Shown here one piece after another: positions 40,769-50,771 of a DNA stretch of 64,000 nucleotides. The DNA lies in NCBI GenBank assembly GCA_029260375.1, contig JAJDDI010000047.1, forward strand, positions 1 to 64,000, in the 5' to 3' direction. Numbering within the stretch: the first letter of the stretch is position 1; each line of letters begins with the position of its first letter. The DNA comes from Phycisphaerales bacterium. Its GTDB lineage: Bacteria; Planctomycetota; Phycisphaerae; Phycisphaerales; UBA1924. The notes under the pieces are model-generated. The model was given only the letters and a program-made list of their open reading frames with translations. It was not told the origin of the DNA and made no database searches. The position numbers were made by a program, and so were the translations under genes.

Positions 40769-40843
40769 GGCCCCATCGTCTAGTCTGGTCCAGGACACCA
40801 GGTTTTCATCCTGGTAACGCGGGTTCGAATCCCGCTGGGGTCA
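40769..40843 (+). tRNA. tRNA-Glu (anticodon TTC)
   Basis: A full cloverleaf: acceptor stem GGCCCCA with TGGGGTC, D arm GTCTAGTCTGGTCCAGGAC, anticodon stem CCAGG/CCTGG with loop TTTTCAT (anticodon TTC at 40805-40807), and T arm with GTTCGAATC. The discriminator is A and CCA is not encoded. The 3' half is overlapped on the opposite strand by the end of the prophage integrase gene, so this tRNA is the attachment site. Confidence 0.96.
40806..40843. other. Probable attL core (tRNA-Glu 3' half)
   Basis: The prophage integrase reading frame runs into the tRNA 3' half and stops in the anticodon loop. Phages that integrate in tRNA genes carry an identical copy of the 3' part, so the core should lie within this stretch. 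The matching attR copy must be right of the window; the exact core is therefore not defined. Confidence 0.6.
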
Positions 40844-42113
40844 GTTCCGAGCTTGAGGGGGAGGAGAGAGCATCTTTGCCCTGCCGGGATCGTCCCGCCG
40901 GGACTCCGGGCTCTGCGGGGTGTGGCTGCGAGACCGACCCGCCGGGACCAGAACCCGGAGTCTCGTGGGACTGCTTGGATGTGACGTTGTTCATCAGCAT
41001 GGTCGATCTCGCGCTCCCATCATCGGCGACCGGATCTGATTTTGTCAAGTTGCTTTCGTCCCTGCCCGCCGCGTCCACAGAGTTATCCACCGCCAGGAGC
41101 GGGTAATCGGCGGCGGATTTTTTCAGCGGCAACTGCCCCGCGTCCAGGTAGCTCTTGAGCGTTGTGCGGATGTCCGAGTGTCGGGCCGCCTGCTTCAAAG
41201 TCCACACGCTGTCGCCGTTTAGCGCTCGAACGGTGATGAATCCCTTTCGCCAGGAGTGCCACCCCGCCGGGCGCCCGCGGGCGTCGTAGCGGGGCACGCC
41301 CACCGCTTCCATGTCATCGAAGAGCTGCCGGTTATCAACACGCCGAGAAAACACGAAATCACGCGGCCCCGGCCCCGTTGAACCACGCAGGTCTTCGAGC
41401 GTCGTGATCGCCTCGGGCGGGAGCATGACCGTTTGGGGGGCGCCCGCCTTGGTGATCGATCCGGGCAGCTCGAGCTGGTCGCCCTGCAGCATCGCCCAGC
41501 GGAGCGCGTACTGCTCCCCCTTACGCAGGCCCGTTGTCGCGGCCAGGATGTACGCCGAGCGGCGGTAGAGGCTGTGGCGGCGGTCCTGGGCGTCGTGACG
41601 CTCTCGGGCACCCCGGATGATCGCCCGCATCTCTTCCAGGGTGAACGCCCGCATCCCGGCCTCGGCGTGGTGGGTGACGGGCTCGATGCCCTGGGCGGGG
41701 CTATAGGTCATGCGACCGGACTTCACGCACCACTCAAAGAACCGGCGCAGCGCCGAGAGCCGGTTGTTGTGCGTCTTGCCCGACGATCCCTCGTCAAGCA
41801 GGTCCGCAAGCCACACGACGATGTCGTCGCGTTTCGCGTCGGGCAGGGCCCGCCAGCCGGACGCCGACCAGACCGAGTCCACGGTCTGTCGAGTGAACGT
41901 CACGGTGTATTCGGAGACACGCCCCGAACGCTCGCGCGACCACCTCGCGAGCAGCTCGGTGAGCGGCTCGTCTCGTCCAAACAGCTTGGGCACTCCCTCG
42001 CCCGGCGCTTGCTGATTCGCCGGCATAAGCCTGATCTCGATGGAAGACCCATCGGGAAGGCACAGCCGCAGCGTAGCGGGCCCGAGCGGGATCTCAATGA
42101 TCCGATCGGGCAT
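40806..42113 (-). CDS. Tyrosine recombinase / phage integrase (C-terminus encoded by tRNA)
   Basis: A 435-residue integrase. The SAM-like N-terminal domain covers residues 45-140. The catalytic set is visible: Arg197 in TTGLRKGEQ, His286-x-x-Arg289 in HSWRKGF, His312 in ARHSDIRTTLKSY and Tyr322. After residue 330 the protein is low-complexity. The last residues SELTPAGFEPALPG are read from the complement of the tRNA-Glu T arm, and the stop is complementary to anticodon-loop bases. It lies next to attL, as expected for the integrase acting there. A second integrase is 34 bases upstream. Confidence 0.88.
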   Translation of the reverse strand: MPDRIIEIPLGPATLRLCLPDGSSIEIRLMPANQQAPGEGVPKLFGRDEPLTELLARWSRERSGRVSEYTVTFTRQTVDSVWSASGWRALPDAKRDDIVVWLADLLDEGSSGKTHNNRLSALRRFFEWCVKSGRMTYSPAQGIEPVTHHAEAGMRAFTLEEMRAIIRGARERHDAQDRRHSLYRRSAYILAATTGLRKGEQYALRWAMLQGDQLELPGSITKAGAPQTVMLPPEAITTLEDLRGSTGPGPRDFVFSRRVDNRQLFDDMEAVGVPRYDARGRPAGWHSWRKGFITVRALNGDSVWTLKQAARHSDIRTTLKSYLDAGQLPLKKSAADYPLLAVDNSVDAAGRDESNLTKSDPVADDGSARSTMLMNNVTSKQSHETPGSGPGGSVSQPHPAEPGVPAGRSRQGKDALSSPSSSELTPAGFEPALPG

Positions 42114-42147: not shown

Positions 42148-43206
42148 TCAAGCGTTGGTGGTTTTACCAACAATACCCCCCATTGGGGTGTGTGAACATG
42201 TTGCATACAAAGCCTCGGGGATTCGGGCGTAGTGCTCGCGTGCGACCTGGGCGGAATGGCCCAGCCAGGAATCGACGACGTGCCCCGGGTATTCGAACCG
42301 CCAGGTCGTGTCGCGCCATTTCCGTAGGGCCTGGAAGGGCCGCGCGGGCGTCGCGTCGGTTGCCCGGGCGATCAGCTCCACCATCGGGCGGTAGACCTCG
42401 GCGGGCAGCCCCGACGTCGGGCGCGTCCCGTCCACGGCGTCCTGGGCGTCGAGTAGGATCCACTCGAGCTCGGGCGTCATCAGCACCACGCGGCGTCGCC
42501 CCTTGGTTGTGACTTGCTCGCCCGGGTTGCGGACGATCAGCCGCCCCTCGCCCCACAGCACGTCGGCGAACGTCATGCGCAGCGCCTCACCCCGCCTGAG
42601 CCCCGCCAGGGCGCAGAGCCCCACCATCGCCCGCCACGCCGGCCCGGGCGCCTGGTCGATCAGGGCCTGGACCTGCTCGTCGGTGGGGATCGGGTCATCT
42701 CGATCGGCGCGGGCGCCCCGGATCTGGACCGCCTCGAACGGGTTGGCCTTCAACTCGCCCCGGGCGACGGCCCGCCGGAACATCGCCCGCGCCCGTCGCC
42801 CGTGCGCCGCCGCCGTGGTCGCCCGCAGCCCTCCACCACGCTTCGAGCGCAGCCAGGACAGCCAGTCATCGACCTCGGCGGGCGTCACGCCCCGGATCGG
42901 CACGTCGCCCATGCCGCGGACCAGCAGATCGCCCGTCGCCCGTATCGTCCGCATCGTCCCATCGCTCACGTCGGGCTCGCGCAGCTCGGCGTACCGATCG
43001 ACCCACGCGCGAAGGCGAGTTTTGCGGCCTGAGACCAAAGACCCCGCCTCGAGCGCGCGCCCCAGCTCATCGCACGCGGCCAGGCCCTGGGCGCGCGACA
43101 GCTCGGCCTTGGGGCCGAGAGACTTCCGGCGCCGTCGCCCCTTCTCGTCGTCGTAGCTCGCCTGCCAATAGTCGCCGTTGGAAGCGAGGCGCACGCGGGC
43201 GTTCAT
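42148..43206 (-). CDS. Second tyrosine recombinase / integrase
   Basis: A 352-residue recombinase of a different subfamily from its neighbour. It has a SAM-like N-terminal domain (residues 65-150), Arg204 in AGLRRGEALRM, the modified second box QALRKWRDTTW with Gln in place of the usual His, and WLGHSAQVAREHYARI with His317 and nucleophile Tyr326. The altered box is seen in other planctomycete-type integrases. Its ATG overlaps the stop of the upstream small gene (ATGA), so the two are coupled. Which of the two integrases performs integration is not known. Confidence 0.85.
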   Translation of the reverse strand: MNARVRLASNGDYWQASYDDEKGRRRRKSLGPKAELSRAQGLAACDELGRALEAGSLVSGRKTRLRAWVDRYAELREPDVSDGTMRTIRATGDLLVRGMGDVPIRGVTPAEVDDWLSWLRSKRGGGLRATTAAAHGRRARAMFRRAVARGELKANPFEAVQIRGARADRDDPIPTDEQVQALIDQAPGPAWRAMVGLCALAGLRRGEALRMTFADVLWGEGRLIVRNPGEQVTTKGRRRVVLMTPELEWILLDAQDAVDGTRPTSGLPAEVYRPMVELIARATDATPARPFQALRKWRDTTWRFEYPGHVVDSWLGHSAQVAREHYARIPEALYATCSHTPMGGIVGKTTNA

Positions 43207-44542: not shown

Positions 44543-44745
44543 GCGGGGGCGAGGCGCCAACACGGAATACCTGGACCGTTCGCCTCGAGGGCGGACCGCA
44601 CGATGGGCAGACCGCCAGGGTGGCCGGCGGGGCGAGTGTCCTGGTGACGCGATGCGTGGGGCCGTGGCGGTTCGTGCACGACGTCTACGAGTTCACCACC
44701 AAGGAGCGCGATGTCGCGGTGTTCGTTCGAACGGAGCGGCCATGA
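44539..44745 (+). CDS. Small hypothetical phage protein
   Basis: A 68-residue soluble protein beginning MSGGEAPTRNTWTVRLEGGP. It reads as a small beta-rich domain (VRLEGGPHDGQTARV and HDVYEFTTKERDVAVFV), a pattern found in many uncharacterised phage proteins. It is coupled by ATGA overlaps both to the gene before it and to dnaB after it. Function unknown. Confidence 0.55.
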   Translation: MSGGEAPTRNTWTVRLEGGPHDGQTARVAGGASVLVTRCVGPWRFVHDVYEFTTKERDVAVFVRTERP

Positions 44746-46220
44746 CCAGGAGGCGTGACGAGCCCACGTCGGACGTCGGGCTGCGGCTGTTCGATCGCGA
44801 GCCGCCCAGCGCCGTGCACGCGGAGCGCTCGCTGCTGGGCTCGATGCTGCTCGACCCCTCGGTCGTCCCCGACGTGATCACCGTGCTCCCCGACTCGGGC
44901 GGGCTGTTCCTCGAGGGTCACCGGGCGATCTTCGACGCGATCGTCCAGCTCTACGACGCGCGGCAGACGGGCGACCTGGTGCAGCTGGCCGAGGCCCTGC
45001 GCCAGCGGGGCGTGCTCGACACCATCGGCGGGACCAAGTACCTGGTGCAGCTCGCCGAGGCCGTGCCCAGCGCCGCCAACGCCCCGCACTACGCCCGGAT
45101 CGTCGCCGACCGGGCCCGGCTGCGGAGCCTGATCAACGCCGCGGGCGAGATCCTGTACGACGCCTACCACCACGACGACTCCCAGCCCGACGCGGCGGGG
45201 GCGATCCTGGACGCCGCCGAGCAGCGGATCCTGGAGATCGCCGGCGCCGAAGCCCAGTTCGAGGAGCGGAGCCTGGCCGAGCTGGTGGAGGGGGAGATCA
45301 GGCGGCTCGAGACCGCCGACGGGTCCGCCCCGGGGGCGGCGACCGGGTTCGACGACCTGGACGCCCTGCTGGGCGGGCTGCAGGAAGGTGAGCTGCTGAT
45401 CCTGGCCGCCCGGCCCAGCATGGGCAAGACGGCCATCGCCCTGAACATCGCCGAGCAGGTGGCCTTCGCGGGGCGGACGCCGTGGTCGATGCCGAGCGAG
45501 GACCGGGTGGGCGTGGGCTTCTTCTCGCTGGAGATGGGAGCCGAGAGCCTCACACAGCGGCTGGTGAGCGCCAGGGCGGGCGTGGACGCGCACAAGATGC
45601 GGACAGGGGCGATCGTGCCCTCCGACCTTGCGAAGGTTCAGGCGGCCTGTCAGGAGCTCTCAACGCTGCCGTTCTATGTCGAGGACACGCCGTCGCTGTC
45701 GATCACGGCGCTGCGGGCCCGGGCGCGTCGGATGCGGCGGCGCCAGAACGTCGGGCTGATCGTGGTGGACTACCTGCAACTGCTGACGGCGACCGTGAGC
45801 GGGCGGGACAACCGGCAGGTGGAGGTCGCGGCGATCTCGCGGGGGCTCAAGGGGCTGGCGCGGGAGCTCAAGATCCCGGTGCTGTGCCTGGCGCAGCTCA
45901 ACCGGGGCGCCGAGAGCCGGGACCGGAACCGCCCGCGCATGGCCGACCTGCGCGAGAGCGGGTCGATCGAGCAGGACGCGGACGTGGTGATGCTGCTTCA
46001 CCGGGAGGCGTACTACCACAAGGACGACGAGGCCTGGCTCAACGACCCGTCCAACGAGAGCAAGCTGACCGAGACGGAGCTGATCGTCGACAAGCAGCGC
46101 AACGGGCCGACGGGCGTGGTGAAGCTGGTGTGGGACGACACCACGACCAGGTTCAAGACCCGCGACTGGCGCCACGGCGGCGAGTTCGACGGCGGCGACG
46201 CCGGGATGCCGATTTTCTGA
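44742..46220 (+). CDS. dnaB: Replicative DNA helicase DnaB (phage)
   Basis: A 492-residue helicase from the ATG at 44742, which overlaps the upstream stop as ATGA. The N-terminal collar domain starts around residue 20 (PPSAVHAERSLLGSMLLDPS). The RecA-fold C-terminal domain has the Walker A motif AARPSMGKTAIALNIAE (about residue 222-238), FFSLEMGAESLTQRLVS, LIVVDYLQLL and LCLAQLNRGAESR. Such an enzyme loads at the phage origin or replaces the host helicase. The T7 primase-helicase fusion is not used here, so replication differs from T7 although the virion genes match it. Confidence 0.93.
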   Translation: MTRRRDEPTSDVGLRLFDREPPSAVHAERSLLGSMLLDPSVVPDVITVLPDSGGLFLEGHRAIFDAIVQLYDARQTGDLVQLAEALRQRGVLDTIGGTKYLVQLAEAVPSAANAPHYARIVADRARLRSLINAAGEILYDAYHHDDSQPDAAGAILDAAEQRILEIAGAEAQFEERSLAELVEGEIRRLETADGSAPGAATGFDDLDALLGGLQEGELLILAARPSMGKTAIALNIAEQVAFAGRTPWSMPSEDRVGVGFFSLEMGAESLTQRLVSARAGVDAHKMRTGAIVPSDLAKVQAACQELSTLPFYVEDTPSLSITALRARARRMRRRQNVGLIVVDYLQLLTATVSGRDNRQVEVAAISRGLKGLARELKIPVLCLAQLNRGAESRDRNRPRMADLRESGSIEQDADVVMLLHREAYYHKDDEAWLNDPSNESKLTETELIVDKQRNGPTGVVKLVWDDTTTRFKTRDWRHGGEFDGGDAGMPIF

Positions 46221-47056: not shown

Positions 47057-47070
47057 ACAAGGAGAACACC

Positions 47071-47589
47071 ATGAACGAGACGAACACGACCGGCAACCCG
47101 GACCCGGACCTGGAGCCCTCGCCCGTGTCCGACGAGCGGCTCAACGCCGAGTATCACGCGGGCGCGTACAGCGAGGCTCAGGCGCCCGAACCCGAGCCCG
47201 CGGCTCAGCCCCTGCCCGAGGGCCTGACCCTGCGGCGCCGGTGCGGGGACCGCTTTATCCAGGGCTACGGCAAGCCGGGGCCCGGGGGCGCGTTCGTCCG
47301 CTACGACGTGCTCAAGGAGACCGACGCGGGCAACGAGCCGCCCGATCTGGAGTTCATCGCCCGCGTCAAGTTCCAGCCCGACGTGGTCTCGAAGGTCGGC
47401 GTGGTGGGCTTGACCAACGAGGCGCTGCTGGCGATCGTCGCCAACCGCCTGGCCTGCTTCCAGCACGGGCCCTTCGCCTGCCCGGAGAACCGGGCCGCGC
47501 TCGAGCACGTCGAGAAGGCGATCGGCACGCTCGAGGAGCGCACCGCCAGCCGCCAGCGCCGCGGCGTTGAGGGCACGCACGCGGTCTAG
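47071..47589 (+). CDS. Acb2/Tad1-type hairpin-domain protein, likely anti-CBASS/anti-Thoeris
   Basis: A 172-residue protein from the ATG at 47071 (AAGGAG 7 bases upstream). After an acidic, proline-rich N-terminus, the conserved part is a VGVVGLTNEALLAIVANRL helix with FQHGPFACPENRAALEH, then AIGTLEERTASRQRRGVEG at the C-terminus. From memory this arrangement, including the terminal RGVEGTH, belongs to the phage Acb2/Tad1 hairpin family, whose members bind and sequester cyclic oligonucleotide or cyclic ADP-ribose signals of bacterial defence. The family call is by recognition only and no search was run. It lies in the early operon, where counter-defence genes are expected. Confidence 0.55.
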   Translation: MNETNTTGNPDPDLEPSPVSDERLNAEYHAGAYSEAQAPEPEPAAQPLPEGLTLRRRCGDRFIQGYGKPGPGGAFVRYDVLKETDAGNEPPDLEFIARVKFQPDVVSKVGVVGLTNEALLAIVANRLACFQHGPFACPENRAALEHVEKAIGTLEERTASRQRRGVEGTHAV

Positions 47590-47603: not shown

Positions 47604-47885
47604 ATGAATCTGTTCCCCAACATCCAAGATACTCCACGTCATAGAGTTGGCCAGAACCCGCCAAGCAGGGACTTGCTGCGCATCTTCGTGGGCGAGGGCA
47701 GGTGGTCCTTTATGGTCACGCATTACCTTGGTCCTATGCGGCGACGCAAGGGCGAGACGATCCTCTACGGCGCGATCGTGGTGGGATGGAGGAATCAGAC
47801 GAACGTGTCGTTTTATTGCAGCTGGTTCAACCGGAAGATGAGACGTCGCGGGAAACAACACCGCACCCATACAAAGGCGGAGTGA
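47604..47885 (+). CDS. Hypothetical phage protein, 93 residues
   Basis: A basic protein with AGGAG 11 bases before the ATG. It has a short beta-rich middle (GETILYGAIVVGWRNQTNV) and a strongly basic C-terminal tail (NRKMRRRGKQHRTHTK), which suggests nucleic-acid binding. No family is recognised. Base composition is a little lower in G+C than its neighbours. Confidence 0.5.
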   Translation: MNLFPNIQDTPRHRVGQNPPSRDLLRIFVGEGRWSFMVTHYLGPMRRRKGETILYGAIVVGWRNQTNVSFYCSWFNRKMRRRGKQHRTHTKAE

Positions 47886-47954: not shown

Positions 47955-48923
47955 ATGCCAGCGAAGACACTCGGCGCCATTCTCCCGTACTACGGCGGCA
48001 AGCGCGACATGGGGCCCATGATCGCGCGTGAGCTTGAGCATGAGAACGGGCGCCCGCGGGCGTTCTACGCCGAGCCTTACGCCGGGAGCATGGCGGTGTT
48101 GTTGTCTAAGAAGCCAAGCGGCCACGAGGTTGTCAACGATCTTTGGGGACCGCTGATCAATCTTGCTTTCGTCATCCAGAGCGACCGCTACACCGAGTTG
48201 CGAGAGAGGGTCGAACGCACGCTCTACGCTCAGCCGCTCTACGACGCCGTTGTGGATCACGCCGCTACGTTCAAGGAGCGTAAGCCGCCTGGGGGTCTCG
48301 GCGACATAGACGACGCTTGTGTTGAATGGGCTTGGGCGTTTCTTGTTCGCGAGTGGTACGGGCAGAACGGGTACACGGGCACGGAGCGTACACACCACAG
48401 TCTGGCGATCCGCAACACCCCCGGTGGCGGGGGCGGGGCCACGCGGCGGGCGGCAGTGGAACGGGCGATACCGTCTTGGCACGACCGTCTCCGCAAGGTC
48501 GAGATCCGACGCACCGACGCGGTCGAACTGATCGCAGGGCTTGATGACAGCAAAGACGTGGCGATCTTTGCCGACCCGCCGTACTTCCACGATACGAGAG
48601 GCAAGGGCGGGACGAAGTACGTGTATGACGTTGAGGACAAGCCCAGCGGAGGGCTGTTTGCAGGCGACGGGCACAGAGACCACCACGACCGTCTCGCGGA
48701 TGTGCTCAACGCGAAACGGGAGACGCGGGTGGTGGTGACGTACTACGCACACCCCCGATTGGCCGAGCTGTACCCCAAGGACCGCTGGACCCATGTAGAC
48801 GCGACGAGGCTCAAGAACCTACACGCCCAAAATCGACGAGGCGCCATGTCGGGGGCAGCCGCGCAAGCTCCGGAGGTTGTTTTGATCAACGGCCCGGCCT
48901 GGGTCATCGGTGGTTGCTCATGA
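47955..48923 (+). CDS. D12-class DNA adenine methylase
   Basis: A 322-residue N6-adenine methyltransferase. It has the SAM motif ILPYYGGKRDMG at residues 9-20, FYAEPYAGSMAVLL, and the catalytic DPPYF motif near residue 207. The order SAM motif then catalytic motif marks the alpha class, as in Dam. The target is unknown. In a phage it could protect DNA from host restriction or regulate packaging or expression. Its last six bases overlap the convergent terminase gene. Confidence 0.9.
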   Translation: MPAKTLGAILPYYGGKRDMGPMIARELEHENGRPRAFYAEPYAGSMAVLLSKKPSGHEVVNDLWGPLINLAFVIQSDRYTELRERVERTLYAQPLYDAVVDHAATFKERKPPGGLGDIDDACVEWAWAFLVREWYGQNGYTGTERTHHSLAIRNTPGGGGGATRRAAVERAIPSWHDRLRKVEIRRTDAVELIAGLDDSKDVAIFADPPYFHDTRGKGGTKYVYDVEDKPSGGLFAGDGHRDHHDRLADVLNAKRETRVVVTYYAHPRLAELYPKDRWTHVDATRLKNLHAQNRRGAMSGAAAQAPEVVLINGPAWVIGGCS

Positions 48924-50771
48924 CAGCCAGTCGGGCGTCGGGTCGGGCTGGTCGGGGCCGCCGGGGAAGGCGATGATCGAGGGGGACGGGCGGTAGCCCG
49001 TCTGCTTCTCCATCTCCCTGGCCACGCGGGCGTCCTCCTCCTCGAAGCGGTACCGCTCGGCCTTGACCTCCGAGTCCTGCACCAGCTCGCCCGACAGCTC
49101 GTGGACCGCCCCGGCGACCGCGTCGAGCCGGTCGTCGTGGACCAGGGCCTTGGGCATCCGGATCAGGCGCGTGATCTGGTGCTGGAGCTCGTACTCGTAG
49201 CTGCCCCCGGGCGTGGGGGCGATGCAGCGCGGGTGCATGACCACGCGGTGGCCGTGGAAGGGCCCCTCGAGCACGTCGGCGATCCGCTCCTCCTTGCACC
49301 CCCGCCGGCTGTCCAGGTGACGCTCCTCGAGCCGCGCCGTCCAGCCGTGCGGGTAGCGGTCGTCCTGTCCGGGCTCGAGGAAGCGCTTGCGCAGTGTCGG
49401 CTCCATGAGCTGGCCGAAGGTCCGCCCGAGCATGTTGTCCTCGTACAGGATCTCGCGGACGCCCCACTTGCGGGCGATGTCGGCGAGATGGCCCTGGACC
49501 GTGGGCAGGAAGCCCGAGTCGCCGTTGCGCCCGAAGCCGCCGACGTCGATGACGTAGAACATGCCCATCATCGCGGCGACCACGGCGTAGGCCGTCTCGT
49601 CCTCGCCCGTGCCCGCCGGGTCGATCCACATGAGCTTGCGCCCGTAGGGCGCCCACTGGCCCCCGTCGAACATGATCGGGGCGTAGAGCGCGTCGTCGCG
49701 GAAGCCCATGCACGGCAGCTCGGGGTCGTCGATGCGGGTGGAGACGTTGCCGGCGCGGACCCGCCCCCAGTTGATCGTCACCGGCGCGGTGTCGTGCCGC
49801 ATGGACTCGAAGACGATCACGTCGCGCATCGCCAGCGGGTACTGGAACTTGGTGCGGATGTTGGTCAGCAGCTTGAACTGCATCCCGTAGTACCGCGGGC
49901 CCTTGGCCCGCTTGGCGGCGCACTCCTCCTCGCCGAAGCGGTCGGGGAAGACCGGGCTGATCCGCTCCTCGGAGCTGTGCTCGGCCTGGCCCGAGCGGAG
50001 ACGCTCTTGCAGGCAGGGCGCCAGGTTGAGCACGTCCTCGTCCCAGGCGGGGTACTCCGTCGGGTAGGACCGGAAGTCGTAGCCCTCCTCGGGCAGCTTG
50101 ACGTACAGGCTCTCCTCGTGGTGGTACGTCCCGATGTACCGCACACGCCCCACGTTGGGGTAGATGATCGCGTCGAACTCCTTGACGCGTTCGTGCAGGT
50201 CCACGCGGGCGTCGATCGTCTTGGTGTTCAGGTCGGTCTCGACGTCGTCGGCCTTGATCAGGTGCGCCCGGTTGCCCTCGAGCTGCCCGTCCACGCCCAG
50301 GGCCTTGTAGCTCGGCTGGCGGCGCCCGGGCTTGGACCCGCCCACGTCGAAGTAGATCGCGGTGTCGCGCTGCCCGCGGCCCGGCGCCAGGTGCCGCAGG
50401 AACCAGACCTCGTCGATGATCTGGCGGGCCTGGTAGATCGTCGCCTTGGCGAAGTCCGCCGATTTCGAGCAGATCAGGATCTGGTGGTTCGGGTCGCGGT
50501 TGAGCCAGTACATGTCGTCGATGTTGCTGATCGTCGTCTTGCCCACGCCGCGGCCGGCGAGCAGGCCCAGCAGGGCGGGGCCGCTGTTGAGCCAGGTGAA
50601 CATGTCGATCTCGACGAACGAGAGCGGCGCGTACGCGGTGTGGCCCAGCTCACGCCAGCACTCCTCGAGGAAGAAAGTCGGGTCGGTCTTGAGCCGCGAC
50701 AGGTAGGCGACGGCCTGGGCGTTGCTGACCCTCTGGCCACGCTCCATCGCCTCGACCTGGGCGGTGTTCAT
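48918..50771 (-). CDS. Terminase large subunit (T7 gp19-like DNA maturase B)
   Basis: A 617-residue packaging motor. The ATPase domain has Walker A LLAGRGVGKTTIS (residues 71-83) after an N-terminal adenine-contacting region. The nuclease domain has LMWIDPAGTGEDETAYAVV with its first metal-binding Asp, and DDRLDAVAGAVHEL near the C-terminus. Size and pattern match the large terminase of T7-like podoviruses. It is the last gene of the late operon, and its start overlaps the small terminase stop (ATGA). Gene order then matches T7 18-19. Confidence 0.92.
   Translation of the reverse strand: MNTAQVEAMERGQRVSNAQAVAYLSRLKTDPTFFLEECWRELGHTAYAPLSFVEIDMFTWLNSGPALLGLLAGRGVGKTTISNIDDMYWLNRDPNHQILICSKSADFAKATIYQARQIIDEVWFLRHLAPGRGQRDTAIYFDVGGSKPGRRQPSYKALGVDGQLEGNRAHLIKADDVETDLNTKTIDARVDLHERVKEFDAIIYPNVGRVRYIGTYHHEESLYVKLPEEGYDFRSYPTEYPAWDEDVLNLAPCLQERLRSGQAEHSSEERISPVFPDRFGEEECAAKRAKGPRYYGMQFKLLTNIRTKFQYPLAMRDVIVFESMRHDTAPVTINWGRVRAGNVSTRIDDPELPCMGFRDDALYAPIMFDGGQWAPYGRKLMWIDPAGTGEDETAYAVVAAMMGMFYVIDVGGFGRNGDSGFLPTVQGHLADIARKWGVREILYEDNMLGRTFGQLMEPTLRKRFLEPGQDDRYPHGWTARLEERHLDSRRGCKEERIADVLEGPFHGHRVVMHPRCIAPTPGGSYEYELQHQITRLIRMPKALVHDDRLDAVAGAVHELSGELVQDSEVKAERYRFEEEDARVAREMEKQTGYRPSPSIIAFPGGPDQPDPTPDWLS

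Follow-up and report, generated by a model that had tools for sequence, protein, structure and literature searches.

A Tad1 homologue with an altered loop in the early operon of a temperate T7-like prophage of a Phycisphaerales bacterium

Does a 172-residue open reading frame (ORF) lying among phage replication genes in this Phycisphaerales bacterium encode a protein that sequesters the nucleotide signals of bacterial immunity and, if so, which kind of sponge is it? Within the window (the whole stretch of 64,000 nucleotides that was analyzed), the ORF runs from an ATG at 47071 to a TAG at 47589, and an earlier note had read it as a putative Acb2/Tad1-type cyclic-nucleotide sponge. The gene and the parts of its predicted protein are as follows.

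47059 to 47064, plus strand: Shine-Dalgarno-like AAGGAG of the Tad1 gene, separated from the ATG by six bases
47071 to 47589, plus strand: Tad1 homologue of 172 amino acids (ORF, phmmer, profile, AlphaFold2, and Foldseek)
47071 to 47220, plus strand: acidic disordered N-terminal extension, residues 1-50 (pI 4.05; pLDDT <50 at residues 13-47)
47230 to 47373, plus strand: four-stranded beta part of the predicted Tad1 fold, residues 54-101 (AlphaFold2; aligned with CbTad1)
47371 to 47409, plus strand: divergent loop FQPDVVSKVGVVG, residues 101-113 (family equivalent FQNGPIxExGVNG)
47416 to 47562, plus strand: two-helix hairpin, helices 116-131 and 138-164, bearing F130, N140, R157, and R161

The peptides quoted in the earlier note are all present in this ORF. 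The 50 codons of the N-terminal extension have a third-position GC of 0.92, versus 0.97-0.98 in the remaining codons of the gene, which is indicative that the extension is coding and part of the protein. The acidic N-terminal part had been put at about 60 residues; its acidity stands, but its length is 50 residues, and no relative of it was found. Likewise, structure prediction had been suggested for residues 95-172, which do hold the hairpin, but the predicted Tad1 domain begins at about residue 52, with the beta-sheet (54-101) N-terminal to the hairpin (116-164).

In our sequence searches against the proteins of solved structures, phmmer returned almost nothing but Tad1, with CbTad1 at E 2.7e-13 (residues 45-170 aligned), phiKZ gp184 at 2.5e-11 (residues 83-171), and CmTad1 at 3.3e-11. 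A profile built from 53 viral relatives together with the window protein gave CmTad1 at 1.2e-32, CbTad1 at 1.2e-30, and phiKZ gp184 at 8.6e-26. Judged from sequence, the resemblance to Tad1 is far beyond chance. A tblastn search matched 134 phage records, all at <60% identity, no close relatives were found in viral contigs with the single-sequence query, and the alignment-based search confirmed relatives encoded in 239 viral contigs. Standard annotation nevertheless misses this homologue. Searches of Pfam, NCBIfam, and PADLOC gave no useful match, and PHROGs placed the protein in phrog_2428 (1.7e-24), which is annotated as of unknown function. The Pfam family PF24729 (Acb2_Tad1_hairpin) is matched by 39 of the 54 alignment members but not by the window protein itself, and routine annotation would therefore pass it over. 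Pfam also aligned the acidic repeat-like tail weakly with Trypan_PARP (E 0.43), a match that was rejected.

The predicted fold points the same way. The AlphaFold2 model, a monomer built from a 54-row alignment, has 77 residues with pLDDT of at least 90 and consists of four strands (54-58, 61-66, 77-84, and 92-101), a short helix, and two long helices (116-131 and 138-164). When compared with the PDB by Foldseek, all of the top 20 matches were Tad1 (probability 1.00; TM by target length 0.71-0.77), and rank 21 fell to E 0.06. The earlier reading, which was to be given up if a structural search showed no similarity to Acb2/Tad1, thus survives, and the sequence, profile, and fold searches together narrow it to Tad1. 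On this sequence and model evidence, the ORF encodes a full-length Tad1 homologue, and not Acb2.

The gene lies within a prophage spanning 40819-88465 (∼47.6 kb) of a contig of 120,209 bases, the relevant features of which are listed below.

40819 to 40843, plus strand: att repeat of 25 bp, the 3' end of tRNA-Glu (the other copy, at contig 88441-88465, lies beyond the window)
40806 to 42026 and 42148 to 43206, minus strand: two adjacent tyrosine integrase genes, next to tRNA-Glu
44742 to 46220, plus strand: DnaB-type replicative helicase, first large gene of the early operon (DnaB_C 7.9e-97)
47955 to 48923, plus strand: D12-class adenine DNA methyltransferase, downstream of the Tad1 gene
48918 to 50771, minus strand: large subunit of the T7-type terminase, with which the opposite-strand block of virion genes begins
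contig 75431 to 77911: T7-type single-subunit RNA polymerase, 826 residues

Between the att copies, we found genes for the helicase, methyltransferase, T7-type terminase, internal virion protein, tail proteins, portal, capsid, scaffold, and RNA polymerase. The att repeat, the integrase, and these phage genes together indicate an integrated temperate T7-like podovirus; the prophage is complete-looking and sits in the tRNA-Glu gene. Its rightward early block reads helicase, two small genes, Tad1, a small ORF, and methyltransferase, with the virion genes leftward. The claim that the gene belongs to an early operon is thereby upheld, as it stands on the plus strand between the DnaB-type helicase and the methyltransferase, opposite to the virion genes of the minus strand. 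The small ORF between Tad1 and the methyltransferase (47604-47885, plus strand) has an ATG start and would encode 93 residues rich in arginine. The two integrase genes each match phrog_1 over different parts and may be two integrases or a single split one.

Tad1 assembles as a hexamer of three dimers. With the family, the fold, the conserved hairpin residues, and the early-operon setting within a prophage observed, we infer the expression, oligomer, ligand, and counter-defense activity of the window protein by analogy with Tad1 sponges, whose mechanism is reviewed in PMC12043709 and stated in PMC12657218. Most probably, it is an early-expressed sponge that binds immune nucleotides without cleavage and prevents Thoeris or CBASS effectors from being activated. 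Such a protein would be made early after infection or induction and, by homology, would form dimers and hexamers; it would bind the nucleotides of the host immune system and leave them uncleaved, with pockets formed by two protomers taking up gcADPR isomers or cyclic dinucleotides and the trimer interfaces taking up cyclic trinucleotides. Thoeris or CBASS effectors would consequently stay inactive while the phage replicates.

The residues of the hairpin agree with such a role. F130, Q131, F135, E139, N140, R157, T158, R161, E167, and G168 are the same here as in nearly every relative, and F130, N140, R157, and R161 align with F82, N92, R109, and R113 of CbTad1, of which we take the first two to be gcADPR contacts and the last two to be cyclic-trinucleotide contacts. 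CbTad1, from a Clostridium botulinum prophage (PDB 7UAW, 8SMD, 8KBE/8KBF), has the same fold, domain length, and element order and shares the hairpin motif FQxGPFxxxEN and an RxxxR close to the C-terminus (TM by target length 0.71-0.77), although it is about 32% identical, lacks the 50-residue acidic extension, and has FQKGARKEEKSQHG in place of FQPDVVSKVGVVG. CmTad1 (PDB 8KBB-8KBD, with cAAA and cAAG), which is ∼28% identical when aligned by fold, likewise agrees in its fold, in the hairpin, and in the EGT motif at the C-terminus.

The loop after strand 4 is where the window protein departs from its family. It reads FQPDVVSKVGVVG, whereas the other aligned relatives mostly have FQNGPIxExGVNG and CmTad1 retains FQxGPIxExGxNG; two positions that do not vary among the 53 other aligned relatives are changed (G104 to D and N112 to V), as are two nearly invariant ones (H76 to V and E108 to K). 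Since Tad1 proteins conserve the loops of the pocket according to PMC12043709, the alteration here suggests that the gcADPR/cyclic-dinucleotide pocket may be changed or lost, and the ligand of the inter-protomer pocket is the least certain step of the proposed mechanism because of this loop. An alternative to the standard sponge, possible though clearly less probable, is that the Tad1 fold is retained with a re-shaped inter-protomer pocket, such that the protein takes up another signal instead of gcADPR or works through the cyclic-trinucleotide site of the hexamer only. The loop, with its E-to-K change and the loss of two family-invariant residues, is common to two prophages of one order and occurs in none of the 73 viral relatives, and the presumed trinucleotide contacts R157 and R161 are retained. 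Against it, CbTad1 itself departs from the majority at part of this loop (FQKGARKEEKSQHGV) and still binds gcADPR; a change in the loop need not, therefore, change the ligand.

The second prophage with this loop was found from a search of 400 genomes of the same order, which yielded one such protein (L167, genome G208). Its loop is FQHDVIPKVGVVG, the form shared with the window protein being FQxDV[VI]xKVGVVG, and the two proteins are 46% identical over the aligned part. L167 also shares the GGA[FY]xxY strand, the hairpin, and the prophage setting, with phage exonuclease and terminase genes around it, but it has no 50-residue extension from its best start and belongs to a different phage type. 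Further members did not emerge from the viral contigs: the two-member subfamily query found no close relatives, and of the two loop patterns searched, the sole match (L173) was not a Tad1 relative. The occurrence of the same alternative loop in two different prophages is indicative of function and not of decay. That the two proteins represent a Tad1 subfamily of Phycisphaerales-type prophages, in which the re-shaped loop captures a different immune nucleotide, is a speculative and rather improbable proposal; if true, it would point to an undescribed immune signal in these bacteria.

Returning to the early-expressed sponge as the preferred reading, the N-terminal extension raises the question of whether it might instead serve to package the protein in the virion, from which the protein would be injected to work as a sponge ahead of all phage gene expression. 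There is a precedent in phiKZ gp184 (PDB 8Y6V chain I), likewise a Tad1 domain with an N-terminal extension, which interacts with the inner body and whose injection from the virion has been validated (PMC10449902). However, gp184 is encoded by a jumbo lytic phage and has a majority-type loop, its extension is unrelated to that of the window protein, with no detectable similarity between the two, and the gene studied here lies in the early replication operon, away from the virion genes. We therefore regard packaging as unlikely.

That the gene could be a decayed relic in a defective prophage is highly improbable. The loss of some conserved loop residues and the two adjacent integrase genes, which could hint at rearrangement, might be read in this way, but the frame is open with a strong codon bias and a Shine-Dalgarno site, the terminase, portal, capsid, and RNA polymerase genes are open, both att sites are present, and the independent prophage of genome G208 has the same loop; the relic reading was rejected on these grounds. 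Least credible of all is an Acb2 identity, which the related hairpin might invite (PF24729 is named for both families, and the sponge principle is common to them) but which the phmmer and Foldseek matches to Tad1 contradict, as the match covers the full Tad1 domain and neither the sequence nor the fold searches matched an Acb2 chain. Acb2 is a short helical hairpin without the beta-sheet part and forms a different, head-to-head hexamer (PMC12043709); the four-stranded N-terminal sheet predicted here makes Tad1 the proper name for the window protein.

To which hosts, then, would a Tad1 sponge be of use? The S-adenosylmethionine synthetase encoded beside the prophage shares 73% identity with its counterpart in Phycisphaerales bacterium UBA5793, versus 56-65% in the full-length matches of the other genomes compared (other planctomycetes, a Cupriavidus), which fits a host of the Phycisphaerales type. 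The earlier note had supposed that planctomycete hosts use cyclic-nucleotide defenses, and this is supported in part: relatives in the family carry CBASS-type cyclases and ThsB-type TIR genes, but neither was matched in the genome of the lysogen. In the host genome (92% complete), we found no match to ThsB_TIR, SMODS, or TIR_2; a SAVED search was uninformative, as its control matched nowhere either. Within the host's family, ThsB_TIR was found in 31 of 163 genomes and SMODS (CBASS-type cyclases) in 19 of 163, two of the SMODS genes being confirmed by PADLOC as CBASS-type cyclases with E near 1e-110. In the order, Tad1 relatives and defense genes occur together in G173 and G189 (SMODS) and in G181 (ThsB_TIR). 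Defense genes in relatives of the group, with none matched in the lysogen, make it plausible that the sponge is of use when the phage infects other hosts of the group, and not in this lysogen. PADLOC found no ThsA partner among the scanned neighbors of the relatives' ThsB-type TIR genes. ThsB-type TIR genes stand in rows of two or three in several genomes of this family (G029:C35:32799-41200, also G115, G117, G023, and G067), and no ThsA was found by PADLOC among the neighbors scanned at the G029 cluster.

The window protein is, on our sequence and fold comparisons, a clear added member of the already known Tad1 family, with an unusual loop and an acidic tail, and it extends this family of anti-immunity sponges to a temperate T7-like prophage of Phycisphaerales-type planctomycetes. 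Its conserved altered loop is the one feature worth testing. We found little literature on the nucleotide signals of planctomycete defenses, and if the loop does change ligand choice, it would offer a handle on these signals.

Two further proteins were noticed among the relatives. The 338-residue gp131 of Burkholderia phage FLC9 (L003:787-1803), a jumbo phage, carries a Tad1 domain in its second half (phrog_2428 at 5.9e-29), while its first half looks, by eye, like a cyclophilin-type prolyl isomerase, an unusual fusion. In genome G083, of the same genus, a 107-residue protein (L168:1501-1821) has the Tad1 hairpin, a C-terminal VEGTH, and a match to phrog_2428, together with a very reduced beta part and the motif WQNGPLGRGNDRKEPNGAF; it is possibly a further sponge subfamily.
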